From a virus, in IMG/VR virus record IMGVR_UViG_3300049460_000134, positions 1 through 64,000 of that record: DNA of 64,000 nt; one strand, 5' to 3'. The position numbers and the translations under genes are program-made. Of this stretch, positions 27,923-40,098 are shown piece by piece. A model generated the notes under the pieces. That model made no database searches, was not told where the DNA came from, and saw only the letters and a list, made by a program, of their open reading frames with translations. The first letter of the stretch is position 1. Each line of letters begins with the position of its first letter.

Positions 27923-27960
27923 GCCTCAGGCTCACACCTGGGGCTTTTTTTTTTTTTTTT
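27923..27960. terminator. Strong intrinsic terminator with a 16-T tract
   Basis: GCCTCAGG pairs with CCTGGGGC around a six-base loop, then 16 consecutive T (27945-27960). It separates the ligase operon from the convergent RepC gene, whose stop codon overlaps the T tract. Confidence 0.92.
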
Positions 27961-29068
27961 AGTGGTGTCGTCGCCGCTTCATCGCCAGGATCTCTTGCTC
28001 GAGGTCCATTTCACCGCACGCCACCTTCCGCGCGGTCGCTCGATAGAAGCCGCCAAAGTTCTTGATGGTCTGCCGGCCTCGCTGATCTGCCGTGTATTGC
28101 TGGAGCACCATGAAGAAGACCACCGCCGCGCGTTGTCGCCCTAATTCGTCGCAGGCTTCCTCCCAGGCGCTCCGGTGCGTCCCAAACACGCCGCGGAGCT
28201 CGGCCGCCGCTTTAACCAGGTCGCCAATGTCTGTCACGCGACCGCAATACTCGATCGCATCAGGGCAGGCGGCCATGATATCGCCCAGCCGGATCGGCTT
28301 GCTCCCCAATCCTTCCGTGCCTTTTGAACAAGGCTGCTCAAAGTTCTCGTTGTTGTTCTTATTGTGACGGCAATTATTGCCGGCATTGGCGGTATTAAAT
28401 AGTTCCTCTGCTTCTTTCGTGAGAGCGCGCCAATCGTTCAGAATGGGGCCAGGAGAGCGTTTCTTCGATCTGCGCGGCGTGTGCTCGGCCAAAGCCTGAT
28501 AACGCTGCTCAAGAGCGCCCGTGTCGATATCGGGGTGATGCTCATGCAAAGCCCTGATGACTTCCATCACTGAGCGCCGAGAGACCGTGACGGCGTCAAA
28601 CTCCTGGCTCCAAATGATCTCCTGCTCGCGCATCCGATCGGCGATGGCCTGGAACTCGTCCTGGCGATCGAGAAGAGGGGAAAGGTCGAAGCCGTAGGCG
28701 TCGATGATCTGCTGCGTGCGGAAGTCTCGCTCGGCATATCTTTTGCCATTCGGAGAGTTTTTCGAGAGCACCAGGCCGGCGCTGATAAGATTGCGCAAGG
28801 CGTTGCGGATCTGCCGCTCGGAATAACCGGTCGCCTGGCACAGCGCATCATTGGACGGCCAGACAAGGATTCTTCCCTTGAGTGGCTCTTTGAAGAAGCT
28901 AATCAACGTCCCGAGGACGGCTATACTTGCCCTATCCAGTTGAAGCGCGCGGTCGGCGAGCTTTTTGACTTGGTAGAGTTTGCGCTTGTCGGCGTCGAAA
29001 TGCTGATTAATCAGTAAGTGCTGACTCGCGGAGAGCTTGCGCCACCCGCTATTGTGTTGAGTCTCCAT
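27959..29068 (-). CDS. repC: RepC-type replication initiator
   Basis: 369 residues, slightly shorter than plasmid RepC (about 400). A winged-helix region (about 70-100, PSNDALCQATGYSERQIRNA) matches the RepC N-terminal DNA-binding domain. The last about 110 residues carry the RepC C-terminal pattern: CPDAIEY, LVKAAAELRGVFGTH, WEEACDELGRQRAA, GGFYRATARKV. In repABC plasmids RepC starts replication at an origin inside its own gene. Here it is on the minus strand, against all neighbours, downstream of an RHH gene. A variant of the phage palindrome lies at 29010-29026 near its 5' end. RepA and RepB partners are not seen. Confidence 0.85.
   Translation of the reverse strand: METQHNSGWRKLSASQHLLINQHFDADKRKLYQVKKLADRALQLDRASIAVLGTLISFFKEPLKGRILVWPSNDALCQATGYSERQIRNALRNLISAGLVLSKNSPNGKRYAERDFRTQQIIDAYGFDLSPLLDRQDEFQAIADRMREQEIIWSQEFDAVTVSRRSVMEVIRALHEHHPDIDTGALEQRYQALAEHTPRRSKKRSPGPILNDWRALTKEAEELFNTANAGNNCRHNKNNNENFEQPCSKGTEGLGSKPIRLGDIMAACPDAIEYCGRVTDIGDLVKAAAELRGVFGTHRSAWEEACDELGRQRAAVVFFMVLQQYTADQRGRQTIKNFGGFYRATARKVACGEMDLEQEILAMKRRRHH
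29010..29026. promoter_or_regulatory. Palindrome variant inside the 5' end of repC
   Basis: ATCAGTAAGTGCTGACT has both arms of the recurrent palindrome with a different centre. It lies about 40 bases inside the RepC coding region. Confidence 0.5.
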
Positions 29069-30746: not shown

Positions 30747-33248
30747 ATGAACAAAGAAATCGTCATCCTTCGCGAAGCAATCAACAAGATCATTCCAATG
30801 ATCGCAGGCAAAGGCCTGAAGGTCACGCAGATCGGAACTGGTGCTTACGTGAAGGCTCATCCTTCAACGGGTGTCCCGTATCTCGTCAACATTCCATCGA
30901 TTCCAGATAATGCGACTCCGGAGTTCGTGACCTCCATTCAAGGCTTCATCGACCATGAAGTCAGTCACGTCCTTTTCACCGACTTTTCCTACAAGATGGG
31001 TCAGAAGTCGCGCCGGCTGCACAGCCTGCACAACGTCTTCGAAGACACCATGATCGAGCGCAAGATGGCGGACAAGTTCTCCGGCTCGAAGCGCAACCTG
31101 GCGACACTGCGCGCCTGGTTCTGCGAAAACATCACGAAGCCAGCGCTCGCATCCGCAAAGTCTGAAGAGGAAGCTTTCGGCTACCTCCTGGTCGTTGCCA
31201 TGCGAGCGCTCGCCGGCCACCGTGAAATGAAAGACTTCCTCGACGACAATAATCTCTGGGCGCAGCCGCTTCTCGCAGCTCTCATGAGCAAGATGCCGGC
31301 CGATTTCGTGAAGCGCATCCCTCTCCTCAACTCGACGGCTGAAACCTACGACGCCGCCGTCCAGCTCGAAGCAATCCTTTATCCGCCACCGCCACCTGCC
31401 CCGCCGCAGCCTGAGCCTCAGCCGGAAGAACAGGACGAGGATGAGAGTGGCGAAGGCGATCAGGACCACTCTGACGAGGAGCAGACCGGCGACGGTGAAG
31501 GCGAAGGTGAGCGTGAGCACACCGAGGACAACGAGAACGCGTCCGGCGGTGAAGAAGAAGAAGACGACGACATGGAGATCGAGGAGCAAGAGCTCTTCGG
31601 CGATGAGGATGAGGACGAAGATGCCGGCGAAGGTGAAAAGAGCGCCGACGAGGAAACTGAAGCCGACGCTGACAGCGACAGCAGCGACGATGGCGATGAC
31701 GACGCGTCTGGCGAAGAAGATGCCGAAGGCGACGCTGACGGCTCCGAAGATGAAGCCGATGAAGATGCTGGTGAGGATGAGCGTAAAGGCTCCGGCAAGG
31801 CCAGCGACAAAGACGGCGACGCTGACGATGCCGATGATGAGAATGGTTCTGGCAAGTCGTCCGATGATGACGATGACGGAGACCAGGAAGAGGATTCAGG
31901 CGATGCTGCTGACGGTTCGCAAGCATCAGAACCTGACGAGGATGCTGAAGGCGACGACGGTGAGACGGATACCGCCGATCAGTCCGATGGATCTGCCGAG
32001 TCGGAAGTGGACGATCAGGATGATGAGAGCGACGGCGACGCTGGCGGCGGTGATGCCGATGGTGAGACCGAAGAAGGTGATGAAGCCGACGACGAGAGCG
32101 ACGCTGAAGGCGGCTCTGACGTTGCGGTAGAAACCGATAGTGACGACGACGGCGACGGAGCCGAAAAGCCTGAAGAGGAAAACGAAGAAGGCGTGGCTGG
32201 TGTCGGCTACGACGAGCACAACCCCTTCGAAGCGCTCGATGACGATGACCTTGTCGACAAGGATCTGTCCTCGTCGATCGCAATCCTCATTCAGAAGGAA
32301 GCGATCAAAGCCATCCTCTCGTCTGAATACTCCGTTCTGACGCGCCAATACGATCGCATCGAACCGCTTCCGGTTCCGGAGACATTCGCTCAGGAGCACG
32401 TCACGCGGCTCGACGACGCAACGCGGCAGATGACCGGTGTCATGCAGAAGGACATTGAGCGCATGATGGCTGCTCAGTCGCGCGTCTTCAAGGTCGGCGG
32501 TCAGCGCTCCGGTCGTCTGAACGGACCTGGTCTGCATCGCATCATGTCCAACGACGATCGCGTGTTTGCTCGCCGAGAAGAGATCAAGGCGAAGGACACT
32601 GCCGTCTCGCTGCTGATGGACTGCTCCGGCTCGATGGAAGGTGCAAAGCAGGCGACCGCCGTGTCAGCCTCCTACGCGCTCGCAACGACCCTTGAGCGCG
32701 TCAACATTCCTTGCGAGTGCCTGGGCTTCACGACGATGGGCTACATCGGTCGCAACAACACGCAGCAATGGCCCCTCTCCCATCGTCAGTGGGAAGAGCT
32801 GATGGAGCATTTCAACGCCGAAGTCGCAAAGGGCGTCACGTTCCATCGGTTCATGCCGATCTTCATGCCGGTCTTCAAAGGCTTCCAGGAGCGCGTCAAC
32901 GCCGAGATCAAGCGTCGCTTCGCCTACATGCAAATCAAGCAGCCACACCAGGGCGGCAACATCGACGGCGAGTCCCTGGAATATGCAGCGATGCGGCTCG
33001 CGCAGCGCAAGGAAAAGCGCAAGGTCATCATCGTTCTGTCAGACGGTCATCCAGCCGGCGCTCTGAACGATTCCGAGCATCTGAAGATGATGGCCGAGCG
33101 CCTGACGAAGCAAGGCTACGACCTCGTCGGTATCGGCATCAAGGATCACGCTGTCAGCCGCTTCTACGACAAGCATGTGGTGTTGCAGGACATCGCCGAT
33201 CTCCCTGGTGAAGTCATGAAGCAGCTTCGTGTCATCCTGCAGAAGTGA
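30747..33248 (+). CDS. cobT: CobT-like protein: HExxH region, acidic linker, VWA domain
   Basis: 833 residues in three parts. The N-terminal part (1-212) has HEVSH (70-74) and LHNVFEDTMIER, the pattern of metallopeptidase-like domains paired with VWA proteins. Residues about 213-480 are a Pro-rich then extremely acidic Asp/Glu/Ser linker. The last about 220 residues are a VWA domain with a MIDAS motif (MDCSGSM) and CobT-like NIDGESLEYAAMRL and VLSDGHP. CobT works with the AAA+ protein CobS in cobaltochelatase; a CobS-like gene follows at 34096. In phages the pair probably remodels another complex, target unknown. Confidence 0.85.
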   Translation: MNKEIVILREAINKIIPMIAGKGLKVTQIGTGAYVKAHPSTGVPYLVNIPSIPDNATPEFVTSIQGFIDHEVSHVLFTDFSYKMGQKSRRLHSLHNVFEDTMIERKMADKFSGSKRNLATLRAWFCENITKPALASAKSEEEAFGYLLVVAMRALAGHREMKDFLDDNNLWAQPLLAALMSKMPADFVKRIPLLNSTAETYDAAVQLEAILYPPPPPAPPQPEPQPEEQDEDESGEGDQDHSDEEQTGDGEGEGEREHTEDNENASGGEEEEDDDMEIEEQELFGDEDEDEDAGEGEKSADEETEADADSDSSDDGDDDASGEEDAEGDADGSEDEADEDAGEDERKGSGKASDKDGDADDADDENGSGKSSDDDDDGDQEEDSGDAADGSQASEPDEDAEGDDGETDTADQSDGSAESEVDDQDDESDGDAGGGDADGETEEGDEADDESDAEGGSDVAVETDSDDDGDGAEKPEEENEEGVAGVGYDEHNPFEALDDDDLVDKDLSSSIAILIQKEAIKAILSSEYSVLTRQYDRIEPLPVPETFAQEHVTRLDDATRQMTGVMQKDIERMMAAQSRVFKVGGQRSGRLNGPGLHRIMSNDDRVFARREEIKAKDTAVSLLMDCSGSMEGAKQATAVSASYALATTLERVNIPCECLGFTTMGYIGRNNTQQWPLSHRQWEELMEHFNAEVAKGVTFHRFMPIFMPVFKGFQERVNAEIKRRFAYMQIKQPHQGGNIDGESLEYAAMRLAQRKEKRKVIIVLSDGHPAGALNDSEHLKMMAERLTKQGYDLVGIGIKDHAVSRFYDKHVVLQDIADLPGEVMKQLRVILQK

Positions 33249-33255
33249 GGCGCTG

Positions 33256-33993
33256 ATGATCCGAGAGCTCATCAACCGCGGCGCGCTGTTCGTCATCAAC
33301 CACAGCGCCGGCAAGGACAGTCAGGCAATGAGCGTGCTTTTAAAGCGGCTCGTGCCTGCTGAGCAACTCCTGGTCATTCACGCGGATCTCGGCGAGGTCG
33401 AATGGGATGGCAATGTCGAGCATATCAAGAGCACGATTGGCGATCTGCCGCTGATCGTCTGCCGCAACGAGAACAAGACCTTGCTCGAAATGGTGGAGCG
33501 CCGCGGCATGTGGCCCTCCCCTTCTCAGCGCCAATGCACGAGCGACCTGAAGCGCGATCCGATCAATCGAGAGGTCCGGCGCTATCTGAAGGCCAATCCG
33601 CGCTACAACGGGCTTGTGGTGAACTGCATGGGCATTCGCGCTGCGGAGAGTCCCGCCAGGAGCAAGCAGAAGCCCTTCCGCTTCGACCAGCGCAACAGCA
33701 AGGCCGGACGCGAGGTCTATGATTGGCTGCCCATCTTCGAAAAGACGACGGAAGAGGTCTTCCAGATCATCGCCGATGCCGGTGAGCAACCGCATCCAGC
33801 CTATGCCGCCGGCATGTCCCGCCTCTCCTGCGTCTTCTGCATCATGGCGAGCCTGAAGGATCTGCGCACCGCCGCGCGCCTGAAGCCTGATCTTTATCGC
33901 AAATATGTGGAGCTCGAAAAGCGGATCGGCCACACGATCAATATGGAAGGTCGCCCTCTCGAAGAGGTCACAGGGATCCTCGCCGCAGCATAA
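33256..33993 (+). CDS. PAPS-reductase-family / DndC-like protein
   Basis: 245 residues from ATG 33256. HSAGKDSQAM near residue 17 is the PP-loop of adenylyl-transferring PAPS-reductase-type enzymes. RQCTSDLKRDPI and SCVFCIMA supply Cys residues in the places seen in DndC-like and phage PAPS-reductase proteins. It is placed between CobT-like and CobS-like genes. Possible roles are sulphur chemistry on nucleic acid or nucleotide activation; the substrate cannot be read from the sequence. Confidence 0.85.
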   Translation: MIRELINRGALFVINHSAGKDSQAMSVLLKRLVPAEQLLVIHADLGEVEWDGNVEHIKSTIGDLPLIVCRNENKTLLEMVERRGMWPSPSQRQCTSDLKRDPINREVRRYLKANPRYNGLVVNCMGIRAAESPARSKQKPFRFDQRNSKAGREVYDWLPIFEKTTEEVFQIIADAGEQPHPAYAAGMSRLSCVFCIMASLKDLRTAARLKPDLYRKYVELEKRIGHTINMEGRPLEEVTGILAAA

Positions 33994-34030: not shown

Positions 34031-34046
34031 GTCAGTAAAAATTGAC
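34031..34046. promoter_or_regulatory. Recurrent palindrome (operator candidate), site 12
   Basis: GTCAGTAAAAATTGAC, the core palindrome, 14 bases after site 11 and 49 before the CobS-like gene. Confidence 0.7.
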
Positions 34047-34095
34047 AATAAGAAAAGCGAAGAAATCGCTAGATCAACACAACAAACGGAGCCGA

Positions 34096-35349
34096 ATGAA
34101 CATGACGACTGCTGTCGCCGCCGCCGATGATATGATTGTCTGCAAGATTGATGGCGCTCTCTGCCACTCGATCCGCGTTCACCTCAAGCATAACCACCCT
34201 GAATGGACGATTGACCGCTACAAGGAAGAGTTTCCTGGCGAGCCGCTGTTGTCGGCATTCGGTGAGGCGCAGGCTCGCAAGATCCGCGCACAGAAGCAGG
34301 CTGAAGAGCGCCGCAAGGAGCGCATGGCGCAGTTTCAGCCGTCGCAGCCCTGGGCGTTCGAAGAGCGCTATATGCACGAGGTCTTCGGCATCGACACGCC
34401 GATCGTCGGCTCTGCCGGTCAGCCGATCAAGATCAACTATCTGACGGAGTGCCATCCGGAGGCTGAAATCTACCTTCAGGATATCGATCCGGACTACGTC
34501 TTCAACATCGACCTGCTGAAGAAGGCCAACATCGCCTACGAACTCAACATGCCCTTCTATGCCTGGGGCTTTCACGGCACAGGCAAGACGACACTGCTTG
34601 AGCAGACGGCGGCTCGCACTGGCCGCCCATTCCTGCGCGTTCAGCACACCGGCAACACCGAAGAGGCGCACATCGTCGGCCAATATGTCGTCAAGACCAT
34701 CCCTGTCGAGGAAGAAGAGCTCGGCGCTGACGGCGTGAAGCACAGGGTCATCAAGCAGAAGGCCGTCACGGAGTTTCAGCCTGGTCCGCTCGCCGTCGCA
34801 ATGAAATACGGCATGGTCTACTGCGCCGACGAATACGACTTCGCAATGCCGTCAGTCATCGCGCTCTATCAGCCGGTGCTCGAAGGCAAGGCGCTCGTCA
34901 TCAAGGATGCACCGCCTGAATGGCGTGTGACGCGTCCGCACCCCGACTTCCGCTTCGTCGCGACTGGCAACACCAACGGTTCAGGCGACGAGACTGGTCT
35001 TTATCAAGGCACGATGATGCAGAACGCCGCGAGCTACTCGCGCTTCACCATCACGGAAGAGGTTAAGTATATGCCGAAGGAGCAAGAGGCGCTTGTCCTT
35101 CGCTCGCGCACCGGTCTGACGAAGGCTGACGCGATGAAGTTCGTGGAAGTTGCGACCGCGATCCGTGAGGCGTTCGCAACCGGCCTGATCTCGATGCCCG
35201 TATCGCCGCGCGAAATCATCGGCGCTGCTAAGCTGTCGATCATCTACGGCGACAATCCGAAGCAAGGTCTGCGCCTCGCATACACCAACCGCTGCACGCG
35301 CGTCGATCAAAAGGCGGTCGATGATGTGGCTCAGAGGTATTTCGGCTGA
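34096..35349 (+). CDS. cobS: CobS-like AAA+ ATPase with N-terminal Ros/MucR-like zinc-finger motif
   Basis: 417 residues from ATG 34096 (CGGAG ribosome site); an upstream TTG lies in the palindrome. EVFGIDTPI, DIDPDYVF, Walker A GFHGTGKTTL (about 156-165), DEYDFAMPSV, VATGNTNGSGDETGLYQGT and MPVSPREII follow CobS almost segment by segment. An extra N-terminal module (C16, C23, H29, H34; HSIRVHLKHNHPEW, then YKEEFP) resembles the Ros/MucR finger of alphaproteobacterial regulators. The protein probably forms a hexamer working with the CobT-like VWA protein. Its stop overlaps the sigma-like gene start. Confidence 0.88.
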   Translation: MNMTTAVAAADDMIVCKIDGALCHSIRVHLKHNHPEWTIDRYKEEFPGEPLLSAFGEAQARKIRAQKQAEERRKERMAQFQPSQPWAFEERYMHEVFGIDTPIVGSAGQPIKINYLTECHPEAEIYLQDIDPDYVFNIDLLKKANIAYELNMPFYAWGFHGTGKTTLLEQTAARTGRPFLRVQHTGNTEEAHIVGQYVVKTIPVEEEELGADGVKHRVIKQKAVTEFQPGPLAVAMKYGMVYCADEYDFAMPSVIALYQPVLEGKALVIKDAPPEWRVTRPHPDFRFVATGNTNGSGDETGLYQGTMMQNAASYSRFTITEEVKYMPKEQEALVLRSRTGLTKADAMKFVEVATAIREAFATGLISMPVSPREIIGAAKLSIIYGDNPKQGLRLAYTNRCTRVDQKAVDDVAQRYFG

Positions 35350-36502: not shown

Positions 36503-36806
36503 GCCAGCCTACCGCATGTTCTTCACCTGCGAAGACGTCAACGAGCCGGCGATCCGGTGCGGCGTCATCGATGTTCGCGAAAACCTGATTGCAGCCGCCG
36601 GTCCAACGAGAGCCGAGCTCCAGGATATCGAAGAGTCCATCGAGCGCATGTGGAGCGTCAAGAACATCGCCATCCATGAGTGGTGCCGCCGCTCAGACGT
36701 CCACCAGTCCAGTTATCACCTCAATACAACTCTCAGGAGACCTTATGCAATCGATCCTCGCAGCCCGGACAGACTTCTCGCTCGGCGAAAGCATTCTGAC
36801 GGCTGA
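36492..36806 (+). CDS. Small hypothetical protein overlapping the polymerase gene
   Basis: 104 residues starting inside the previous gene and ending 62 bases inside the polymerase gene. The first about 70 residues look protein-like (FFTCEDVNEPAIRCGVIDV), with three Cys; the tail is basic. The last part may be only read-through sequence. No family recognised. Confidence 0.55.
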   Translation: MRDKPAYRMFFTCEDVNEPAIRCGVIDVRENLIAAAGPTRAELQDIEESIERMWSVKNIAIHEWCRRSDVHQSSYHLNTTLRRPYAIDPRSPDRLLARRKHSDG

Positions 36807-39800
36807 AAAGCTGGTCGATATCGCCGTTGAGCAGAAAGCCACTGCCGTCGCGATCACCGACACCATGTCTGTTACAGGCATGATCGACTTCACCAATCGC
36901 GCCAAGAAGCAGAACGTCAAGCCGATCATCGGTGTTCGGCTGCGCATGTCTGACGATCCGACCTGGCGGCCGGCGAAGGGCGAGAAGAAGAAGCACATGC
37001 CGCCTGAGCACTTCCTTACGGCATATGTGCTGACTGAAGTCGGCATGAAGGCCATCTTCCGTCTGCTGACCAAGGCGAACGGTCCTGATCGCTTCTACTA
37101 CACCGCCAAGCTTTCTTATCAGGATCTCTACGACGAGCTTGGCAAGATGCTCTCCGGCAACCTCGCTATTCATCTCGGCGAGACGCACGGCGTCTTGATG
37201 CATCCAGCCTATGAGCAGATCATTGAGAAGCTGGTGCTGCACCTTGGCGAAGGCTACGTCTACACGCCGGCGATCCCGATCAACACACCCTACTTCGGCG
37301 CCGTCAATCAGCGATCGGAGCAGATCGCGATCAGATACAGCCTGCCGCCGCTTGTCGTGCGCCCCGCCTACTACGAAGCGAACCAGGCCGACGCGCACGA
37401 AATCATGGGTGCGATCTCCAACGGCAACAAGATCGAAGACGGCTGGCACCGCTCGGCGCACAATCGCGACTTCCATGTGCTCGGCGCGCAAGATCTCGCC
37501 AATGAGGTCATTGCCGCAGCAAAGCACCTGAAGCTGCGCGGTGTGCAGAACGCCGGCAACTTCTTCAAGCGTGGTCTCGCCAACACCGATCGCCTGGTCA
37601 ACGAGGTCGAATACGAATGGTCCAAGCAGCCGGTCTCGCTGCCACAGATGGCGCCTGACGAGTTCAAGGCTGTCGTCGATGAGTGCAAGAAAGGCTGGGC
37701 TGAGCGCTTCTCATCTGAAGCCTTCGGTCACGTTCCAACGAAGGAAGAGTTGGTCGAGGTCTATAAGCCGCGCCTCACGTATGAGCTGGAGATCCTGAAG
37801 AAGCTCAACTTCTCTGGCTACTTCCTACTCGTGCAGGACGTGGTGCAGTTCTCCAAGAAGGCAGGCATTCTCGTTGGACCAGGCCGCGGCTCTGTTGGTG
37901 GTTCGCTCGTCGCTTATCTGATGGGTATCACAGACTGCGATCCGATCCGCTTTGGCCTGCTTTTTGAGCGCTTCATCAATCCTGAGCGTCTCGACCTTCC
38001 TGACGCAGACTTGGACTTCATGTCTGAGCGCCGGCACGAGGTTGTCGAATATCTCATTCAGAAGCACGGCGAAAAGCGCGTCGCTGGTGTGTCGAACTTC
38101 GGCCGCCTGGCTGCAGCGTCTTCGATCCGCGACGTCGGGCGCACCTTCGGCATTCCTGAGAAGGAATATTCGGTCTCGAAGTATGTGCCAAAGCTTCACG
38201 GTGCCAACGTGCCGCTACCAGGCTGCGCAGAGCAGGTTCCGGAGATCCAGGCATTCGCCGACAAGTATCCGGCGCACTGGACCATTATGGAGCGCCTGGA
38301 AGGCACGATCCGCAACATGTCGCAGCACGCAGCCGGCATTGTCGTCGGTGGTGTGGATCTCGAAGAGCGCGCGGTCATCGAAAAGCGCAAGGGAGATTCG
38401 GCAGTCGTCTGCTGGGACAAGCGCATCGTTGAGGATCAAGGCCTGGTCAAGATGGATATCTTGGGTCTGAACACGCTCGACCTGATCTCGCTGGTGCTCC
38501 AATACATCATGGAGCGGCGCCAGAAGAAGATTAACCTGATGAAGATCCCGCTCGACGATCCGAAGGTGCTCGAAAACTTCGCCAAAGGGCTCACGACTGG
38601 CGTCTTCCAGTTCGAAAGCTCTGGCATGCGCAAGCTGCTGCGCGAGCTCGGCGCCGATGGCACGATTACCTTCGATGACGTGACTGCCGCGACCGCGCTC
38701 TATCGTCCAGGTCCAATGGAATCTGGCATGATGGACAGCTACTACAAGCGCAAGCAAGGCAATGAATACGTCGAATATGACCATCCACTCATGGAAGACG
38801 TGCTGAAGGAAACCTTCGGCGTTATCGTCTACCAGGAACAGGTCATGAAGATCTCCCAGGTCATCTGCGGCTACTCCGGCGCTGACGCCGACAAGCTGCG
38901 TAAGATCATGGGTAAAAAGCTGCCTGAAGAAATGAAGAAGGAGCGCGGCAAGTTCTGCGACGGTGCGGTCAAGACGATCCAATGCACTGAGGAATGGGCA
39001 GGCGCTCTCTTCGACAAGATCGAAGGCTTCGCTGGTTACGGCTTCAACAAGTCGCACTCGGTCGAATACTCGCTGATTTCCTGGCAGTCCATGTGGCTGA
39101 AGACTCACTATCCGGTCGAGTTCTTCGCGGCAGCACTCACGCTGATGGATCAGGACAAGCTACCGGCGATCCTGCGTGATGCTGCTCGCTTCGGCATTGA
39201 GGTATCGATGCCTGACATCAACATTTCGACCGGTCGTTTCGAGATCGCGACTGATGTGCGCCTGGTCATCCCCTTCCAGCGCATCAAGGGCATTTCAACC
39301 AACACGACGGCCGCCATCCTCGCCGCGCGCGAAGATGGACCCTTCAAGAACAAGGCTGACTTCCTCGATCGCGTCAACAAGACCAAGTGCAACAAGAAGC
39401 ATCAGGAGGCGCTCGACCTTGTCGGTGCGTTCTGTCGCATCGAGGTCGGTCAAGTTGCGTCGGCTGATCCCAGTCGCATTCGTGACCAGCTCGAGCTGTT
39501 GCCTGGCCTCGTGACAGCGACCGTGCCGATCAATCGCACCATGCCGCACGACAAAGCGACCAAGGAGGCAATCGCTGATGTGATCGCCGACTATAAGGAA
39601 GCTCTGTCTGAAGACGGCATCATGGTCCAGCCGTGCTTTGGCAAGCGTGCGCAATTCATGATCATTGCCGACGCGCCAACGAGCGCTGAAGAGCAGGAAG
39701 GCCTGATTGGCTATGGCAAGACGTCTGCGCCTGTCGTTGACGCTCTGGCGGCCCACGAGCTGTCACGCGATGACGCCTACTGGACGGCAATGCTGAAGCG

Positions 39801-40098
39801 GCCGAAGGCTGGCAAGCAAGTTACAGCGGAAGAGATCGAGATGTATTGGCCGTATCTCGAGCGCGAGATCCAGATCCTCGAGCCGCCGACCATCATCCTG
39901 ATCGGCACATCGGTCATCCGGAAGTTCTTCCCTGACATGCAAGGCAAGGCATCCGACAACGCCGGCAAGGTGATCTACCACAAGGAGCTCGATGCAAACA
40001 TCGTCATCGGCTTCAATCCCGGCGAGATCCACTACGCACCCGAAAAGCAGGAGATCCTCGAGGACGCATTCGCGTCGGTTGTCGATCTCCTTGATTAA
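36745..40098 (+). CDS. dnaE: DNA polymerase III alpha subunit fused to a uracil-glycosylase-like domain
   Basis: 1117 residues from ATG 36745 (CAGGAGA site). The catalytic core is clear: GPGRGSVGGSLVAYLMGI, LPDADLDFMSERR (catalytic Asp pair), QHAAGIVVGG, KMDILGLNTLDL, and FNKSHSVEYSLISWQ. The PHP domain at the N-terminus lacks its metal ligands (AARTDFSLG and ITDTMS where His residues are usual). From about 971 to the end, IADAPTSAEEQEGLIGYGKT, ILEPPTIILIGTSVI and GFNPGEIHY follow the uracil-DNA-glycosylase superfamily instead of the usual tau-binding tail. It is the phage replicase. No separate proofreading exonuclease is seen in the window. Confidence 0.93.
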   Translation: MQSILAARTDFSLGESILTAEKLVDIAVEQKATAVAITDTMSVTGMIDFTNRAKKQNVKPIIGVRLRMSDDPTWRPAKGEKKKHMPPEHFLTAYVLTEVGMKAIFRLLTKANGPDRFYYTAKLSYQDLYDELGKMLSGNLAIHLGETHGVLMHPAYEQIIEKLVLHLGEGYVYTPAIPINTPYFGAVNQRSEQIAIRYSLPPLVVRPAYYEANQADAHEIMGAISNGNKIEDGWHRSAHNRDFHVLGAQDLANEVIAAAKHLKLRGVQNAGNFFKRGLANTDRLVNEVEYEWSKQPVSLPQMAPDEFKAVVDECKKGWAERFSSEAFGHVPTKEELVEVYKPRLTYELEILKKLNFSGYFLLVQDVVQFSKKAGILVGPGRGSVGGSLVAYLMGITDCDPIRFGLLFERFINPERLDLPDADLDFMSERRHEVVEYLIQKHGEKRVAGVSNFGRLAAASSIRDVGRTFGIPEKEYSVSKYVPKLHGANVPLPGCAEQVPEIQAFADKYPAHWTIMERLEGTIRNMSQHAAGIVVGGVDLEERAVIEKRKGDSAVVCWDKRIVEDQGLVKMDILGLNTLDLISLVLQYIMERRQKKINLMKIPLDDPKVLENFAKGLTTGVFQFESSGMRKLLRELGADGTITFDDVTAATALYRPGPMESGMMDSYYKRKQGNEYVEYDHPLMEDVLKETFGVIVYQEQVMKISQVICGYSGADADKLRKIMGKKLPEEMKKERGKFCDGAVKTIQCTEEWAGALFDKIEGFAGYGFNKSHSVEYSLISWQSMWLKTHYPVEFFAAALTLMDQDKLPAILRDAARFGIEVSMPDINISTGRFEIATDVRLVIPFQRIKGISTNTTAAILAAREDGPFKNKADFLDRVNKTKCNKKHQEALDLVGAFCRIEVGQVASADPSRIRDQLELLPGLVTATVPINRTMPHDKATKEAIADVIADYKEALSEDGIMVQPCFGKRAQFMIIADAPTSAEEQEGLIGYGKTSAPVVDALAAHELSRDDAYWTAMLKRPKAGKQVTAEEIEMYWPYLEREIQILEPPTIILIGTSVIRKFFPDMQGKASDNAGKVIYHKELDANIVIGFNPGEIHYAPEKQEILEDAFASVVDLLD

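Follow-up and report, generated by a model that had tools for sequence, protein, structure and literature searches.

A phage DnaE-type polymerase with a predicted C-terminal uracil-DNA glycosylase fold that lacks the known uracil-excising residues

What does the fold of a repair enzyme do at the C-terminus of a replicative polymerase? The question is raised by a dnaE-like gene in the virus record IMGVR_UViG_3300049460_000134, of which positions 1 to 64,000 were analyzed as one stretch (the window; the whole record has 115,555 bases). A first-pass annotation, made from the sequence alone, had assigned the gene product to DNA polymerase III alpha, with a uracil-DNA glycosylase (UDG)-like domain that might read template uracil, repair it or serve as a structural clamp. 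The models confirmed the predicted fold, and the residues by which related enzymes bind and excise uracil were missing from every DnaE-linked copy that we compared. The domain thus probably has a structural or DNA-binding role, which fits the sequence data best.

The polymerase and the fold of its C-terminal domain

36745..40098, plus strand: dnaE-like gene encoding DNA polymerase III alpha with a C-terminal UDG-fold domain, 1117 residues (phrog_405 over residues 5-1116, Pfam, sequence comparison)
36745..39441, plus strand: PHP, Pol III alpha, finger and HHH domains, residues 1-899 (Pfam PF02811, PF07733, PF17657, PF14579)
39553..40095, plus strand: UDG-fold domain, residues about 937-1117 (PF03167 match, AlphaFold models, structural matches)

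We used the ATG at 36745 as the start, which agrees with the residue numbering of the first-pass annotation; a longer reading from a TTG at 36589 has 1169 residues. Positions 39655-40098 form the 3' part of a single uninterrupted open reading frame (ORF). All four polymerase Pfam domains scored over their cut-offs in the window protein. DnaE structures matched the full-length model over residues 1-908 with Z scores of up to 41.5, and the nearest solved sequence relatives were bacterial DnaE proteins for residues 7-901 and family-4 UDGs and UdgX for the C-terminus. Residues D420, D422 and D571, which we take to be the three catalytic aspartates of DnaE, were invariant in an alignment of 35 full-length relatives. 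We concluded that the protein is a C-family DnaE-type polymerase and the phage's own replicative enzyme, in agreement with the first-pass annotation. The OB domain and the C-terminal domain typical of DnaE1 were not found, as Pfam gave no match between the end of HHH (residue 899) and the UDG domain. Since only about 37 residues separate HHH from the UDG fold, too few for an OB fold, the OB domain is absent, and the proposed replacement of the usual C-terminal domains holds.

The Pfam profile PF03167 scored 38.7 bits against a cut-off of 24.3 with the C-terminal 196 residues alone, matching residues 968-1100, and over the complete record it gave this one match only (38.9 bits). TIGR00758, the profile of UDG family 4, reached 55.4 bits, which is under its own cut-off of 125.3. 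A phmmer search against the PDB retrieved S. tokodaii UDG (7e-9) and UdgX (3e-6). An AlphaFold model of residues 879-1117, built from 48 window and viral sequences, had a mean predicted local distance difference test score (pLDDT) of 87, with block means of 90-97 from residue 929 onward. Its best structural match was Thermotoga UDG (Z 22.5, 2.4 Å over 180 residues), followed by S. tokodaii UDG (Z 22.4, 2.5 Å over 178 residues) and UdgX; human TDG and E. coli Mug ranked below these. The fold is shared with the family-4 enzymes of S. tokodaii (4zbx), T. maritima (1vk2) and T. thermophilus (1ui0) and with UdgX over 173-180 residues at Z 20-22, and the motifs can be aligned.

In the full-length model (mean pLDDT 87, predicted template modeling score 0.73) the UDG blocks had values of 76-94, below those of the domain model, and UDG structures matched residues 936-1117. 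Because the structural matches begin at 936-942, we place the domain start near residue 937 (window position 39553) and not at 970; the C-terminal location given earlier was correct, but the domain starts before the point assumed. Structure prediction, which had been proposed as a check, thus returned a UDG fold, and by these models the UDG alpha/beta fold of the C-terminal ~180 residues is confirmed.

Active-site positions in DnaE-linked domains

We compared 97 non-redundant DnaE-linked domains, including that of the window. This collection enlarged an earlier set of 54 by two scans, and the viral matches feeding the sets were the best 80 of 129 and the best 80 of 160. Three sequences shorter than 230 residues and rows with fewer than 150 aligned residues were left out of the counts.

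39670..39672, plus strand: Asp 976, aligned with the motif-1 Glu (UdgX E52); Asp in 96/97
39787..39789, plus strand: Ala 1015, aligned with the uracil-reading Asn (UdgX N91); Asn in 0/97
39796..39807, plus strand: Lys 1018 (UdgX K94 position) to Lys 1021; both Lys in 96/97, the remaining row gapped
40015..40017, plus strand: Asn 1091, aligned with the motif-B His of HP(S/A) (UdgX H178); His in 0/97
40033..40035, plus strand: Tyr 1097, aligned with R184 of the DNA-intercalating loop of UdgX; Phe 58, His 29, Tyr 7, Val 1, Met 1 and one gap among the 97

The family motifs quoted in the first-pass annotation are present and align with family 4, but key residues of the family are lacking. Motif 1 reads ADAPT in the window protein, compared to GE(A/G)PG in the solved family-4 enzymes and GE(A/G/Q)PG when UdgX is included. 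At the position of the uracil-reading Asn the 97 domains have Thr (33), Ala (31), Gly (17), Ser (15) or Pro (1), and Asn was found in all four non-redundant family-4/UdgX-like controls. Thr 1014 was dropped as a candidate for this position, since the alignment to solved enzymes gives Ala 1015. The position of the motif-B His is occupied by Asn in 73 domains, Ser in 18, Ala in 4 and Thr in 1, with one gap. The alignment of catalytic residues therefore spoke against a typical family-4 active site, with Ala 1015 for Asn, Asn 1091 for His and an altered motif 1. Arg 1019 stands where family 4 has a Cys after the Lys, the R184 position is aromatic or His in 94 of the 97, and the KRRIH R-loop of UdgX with its cross-linking His is absent from the window protein in the alignment to UdgX.

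In UdgX, the Asn and His at the matching positions bond to uracil (PMC10359453). The mutants F65A, N91A, K94A and H178A each abolished uracil excision (PMC10776899). Because Asn and His are lost in all 97 domains and these UdgX mutants are inactive, uracil excision by the known route appears very unlikely from the sequences. The proposal that the domain repairs uracil is not supported by these counts. Reading of template uracil through the known contacts is likewise unlikely, which leaves room for some other way of reading it.

Several points weigh against this interpretation. The UdgX results were obtained with Ala substitutions in another protein. Some enzymes of the UDG superfamily are active without the Asn, so that activity on another base by another route is conceivable; E. 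coli Mug carries Lys at this position (PMC10776899). The nearly invariant Asp 976 could still activate water. The stacking Phe (UdgX F65 position) was found in 4 of the 97 domains, a count that depends on a position uncertain by one column, with Tyr 990 adjoining. The loss of active-site residues in DnaE-linked UDG domains was not discussed in the literature searched, a search that had most subscription papers outside its coverage.

The four Fe-S (iron-sulfur) cysteines of family 4 are absent from the window protein in the alignment. A CxxC at the start of the UDG domain, with a His 6-9 residues past the second Cys, occurs in 44 of the 97 domains (for example L004, L089, L090, L093 and L097), and a loose pattern detects a later Cys in 32 of these 44. 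Judged by its residues, this arrangement resembles what would remain of the family-4 Fe-S site after a change of its ligands; the domain of Pseudomonas phage nickie retains the CxxC and the His. In the rhizobial branch of the window the CxxC site is lost, while sister branches keep it, sometimes with a further Cys.

Spread of the fusion and related polymerases

Timinskas et al. 2013 (PMC3919608) described an unusual DnaE variant, an additional polymerase of certain Y. pestis and S. enterica strains, that has an archaeal-type UDG domain (PF03167) instead of OB and the C-terminal domain. The window protein has the order given there for DnaEX, PHP-Pol3-(HhH)2 followed by PF03167, without OB and C-terminal domain. 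Unlike those polymerases it belongs to a rhizobial phage branch, and the sections of PMC3919608 consulted are silent on the active site and on a phage origin. Salmonella phage SSU5 encodes a full-length relative with 37.5% identity to the window protein, and the GenBank record of RHEph10 carries the note 'uracil-DNA glycosylase-like'. The fusion architecture is thus already described and ordinary for its phage group. What the present comparison adds is how widely the fusion is spread, that all copies compared have lost the excising residues, how they differ in this from PolA-linked domains, and that the Cys/His set is altered in other branches.

With the full protein as query, tblastn matched 1336 phage records. 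Among the 60 matches listed, 30 reach residue 1116 or 1117, all with at least 36.8% identity, and the remaining 30 have at most 33.8% identity and end at residues 877-943. The C-terminal 196 residues alone matched 40 phage records, namely the same 30 and 10 others (7 annotated as DNA polymerases, 3 unannotated). With an E value limit of 0.01 the same query found 934 plasmid records, and in 748 the match spans 80% or more of the query. Klebsiella, Escherichia, Acinetobacter and Enterobacter account for most of these matches, and several are SSU5-like; the plasmid records considered were 20 rows among the matches listed, four of which were inspected. SSU5-related phage-plasmid types are reported for Acinetobacter, Klebsiella, Y. 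pestis and Salmonella (PMC12977533). Two of the four inspected plasmid records name the domain 'uracil-DNA glycosylase' as a separate gene, and the residue loss in every compared copy argues against this label. We suggest that phrog_4335 and phrog_13175, both of unknown function, may represent the C-terminal part of such polymerases.

The domain lay in an ORF at 236 of 237 loci scanned, and 228 of these 236 ORFs also contained the polymerase core. Of the eight ORFs without core, six are cut off by the contig start, and at L301 and L331 a stop lies upstream. The 237 loci were chosen as domain matches and cannot reveal polymerases of the clade without the domain; this point depends on the 60 tblastn rows listed of the 1336. 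The single ORF in the window together with the 228 shared ORFs ruled out an independent gene or a frameshift, so that no gene boundary separates the domain, and the fusion, for which a wider search had been advised, was found in phages and plasmids. Each of 20 fusion records examined had exactly one PF03167 match, over the cut-off in 17.

Interruptions of dnaE upstream of the domain also occur, for example on A. baumannii plasmid ZW85p2, beside a NUMOD4-domain gene; the annotation there calls the C-terminal part a uracil-DNA glycosylase family protein. DnaE-UDG ORFs shortened at the 5' end within contigs were seen at L038, L045, L054, L090 and L099, one of them beside a NUMOD4-domain gene. At L065 and L085 the ORFs are about 200 residues longer (1347 residues), possibly by an intein. 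A DnaE-UDG gene of Photobacterium ganghwense (L106) lies on a contig of 1,045,246 bases, perhaps in an integrated element.

A UDG-like domain is likewise fused to the replicase in family-A phage polymerases, namely SPO1 gp31, PaBG (PMC7412058) and Thermus phage phiLo (PDB 9qhs). In these it is N-terminal and on another polymerase family, whereas that of the window protein is C-terminal on DnaE. The parallel to SPO1 on an unrelated polymerase, drawn in the first-pass annotation, is therefore correct, the SPO1 polymerase being family A. The phiLo structure matched the domain model at Z 15.1 over 153 residues; a paper on 9qhs was not found in the literature searched. In the tree the DnaE-linked domains grouped on a single branch of their own (100/100), separate from the five PolA-linked and the five family-4/UdgX-like rows included; those of PolA-linked domains were not one clade, and long-branch warnings apply to PolA_LysYB1, F4_mega and C_L092.

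Among 51 non-redundant PolA-linked domains, drawn from the best 80 of 91 matches with four truncated ORFs left out, 38 have Asn and His, 10 His only, 2 Asn only and 1 neither, and 35 keep all four checked residues, proportions that are biased by a search pattern in which the Asn position was limited to P, N or G. Since 38 of the 51 keep Asn and His, loss in every copy was seen in the DnaE lineage only. Five PolA-linked domains, four without Asn, had hinted at convergent inactivation of all polymerase-linked UDG domains, which the larger sample refuted. The phiLo domain has all four checked residues, and the SPO1 domain is without Asn and Phe. PolA-linked domains without the uracil-reading Asn include those of SPO1 (L206) and of the PMBT14 group (L014 PMBT14, L013, L015). 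SPO1 has a dUMP hydroxymethylase gene, and loss of Asn in PolA-linked domains may be associated with pyrimidine modification; in Manatee (L011), for which a pyrimidine hydroxymethylase gene is annotated, the domain nevertheless kept the Asn.

Candidate roles of the domain and genomic context

The ratio of nonsynonymous to synonymous substitution rates (dN/dS) was 0.024-0.351 in the domain versus 0.022-0.192 in the core for eight pairs with dS below 1.2; four of 12 pairs were unused, with dS saturated or undefined. Ten columns of the domain were invariant in 48 sequences, two of them Lys. The substitution pattern indicates that purifying selection persists and that the domain changes faster than the core, without decay.

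The fusion, the clade-wide loss of the excising residues and the purifying selection are seen in the sequences, and the fold in the models. The explanation that we favor, and hold to be reasonably probable, is that the UDG-fold domain, a relative of the family-4 UDGs that stands in place of OB and the C-terminal domain, would no longer excise uracil. It would act as a non-catalytic nucleic-acid-binding module, holding the template or single-stranded DNA near the polymerase, and would so take over the part of the missing OB domain. The role of a repair fold on a replicase after loss of cutting thereby becomes a testable question. It is unlikely, though worth weighing, that the domain is instead a docking site which ties the polymerase to the phage helicase, primase or gp32-like protein or to the host clamp loader, like the tau-binding C-terminal domain in E. 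coli. Docking would agree with the replacement of the C-terminal domain as well as OB, with several invariant residues being structural and with the DnaB-like helicase, primase and gp32-like genes near dnaE, but the best-kept side chains (Asp 976, Lys 1018, Lys 1021) sit in active-site motifs. These nearly invariant Asp and Lys residues in the former active site, the fold of a uracil-binding family and the location on a replicase would also suit a template sensor, which binds uracil, an abasic site or another lesion without cutting and pauses the polymerase. Archaeal family-B polymerases, with their uracil pocket, are an analogue. We regard such a sensor as rather improbable, because the uracil-holding Asn and His of UdgX are lost in all 97 domains and because dUTPase was found in just 12 of the 20 fusion records, so that a tight link to uracil handling was rejected.

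That the domain is an active glycosylase, repairing DNA during replication with specificity for uracil or a new base, has a small chance in our view. The UDG fold and an Asp 976 that could activate water speak for it, as do the activity of Mug without the Asn (PMC10776899) and the uracil removal proposed for the PaBG PolA-linked domain (PMC7412058). It is opposed by the absence of Asn, His and stacking Phe, each required in UdgX, and of the Fe-S cysteines from the window protein; active uracil repair was rejected as the best reading because the active-site residues are lost. A decaying passenger, a dead enzyme domain without remaining role, is scarcely credible: the excising residues are gone, as are the Fe-S cysteines in the window's branch, but the domain lies in an ORF at almost all loci scanned (chosen as matches), with low dN/dS and invariant positions. 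A more far-reaching form of the non-excising explanation is that a phage or phage-plasmid replicase clade turned a repair glycosylase into a non-cutting template reader replacing OB. This reader may recognize a base or lesion via Asp 976 and Lys 1018/1021, and in other branches (the 44 of 97) it may hold an altered Cys/His metal center that was lost in the rhizobial branch. We consider this form, taken as a whole, doubtful.

39487..39501, plus strand: QLELL (residues 915-919), candidate beta-clamp-binding motif right after HHH (pattern Q..[LMIF][LMIFV])
27959-29068, minus strand: RepC-type plasmid replication gene, also in RHEph10

The pattern Q..[LMIF][LMIFV] follows HHH in 87 of 96 aligned relatives, and the full-length model places the QLELL stretch at a helix end. 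The clamp motif of E. coli alpha is located at the equivalent place, just after HHH. A beta clamp was not found with PF02768, and the polymerase probably uses the host clamp through this putative motif. A DnaQ-like exonuclease (PF00929) encoded at record positions 66033-66500, just outside the window, is a candidate proofreader for the polymerase.

The window also encodes an ordinary ThyA (by NCBIfam), a dUTPase, a ribonucleotide reductase alpha subunit and a RecA relative, as well as 5'-3' exonuclease and ligase in addition to the gp32-like, helicase and primase genes. With its dUTPase and ordinary thymidylate synthase the phage lacks none of the repair genes that dUTP exclusion requires, which agrees with the favored explanation. 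Modified thymine (hydroxymethyluracil, possible for SPO1) is unsupported, since the thymidylate synthase of the window is ordinary ThyA. The RepC-type gene, which RHEph10 carries as well, indicates that the window virus is probably a phage-plasmid. CobT-like and CobS-like genes lie upstream of dnaE, as in RHEph10, SSU5 and nickie. In the window a PAPS-reductase-like gene stands between them (30747-33248, 33229-33993 and 34042-35349 for the three genes), and none is annotated between them in RHEph10.

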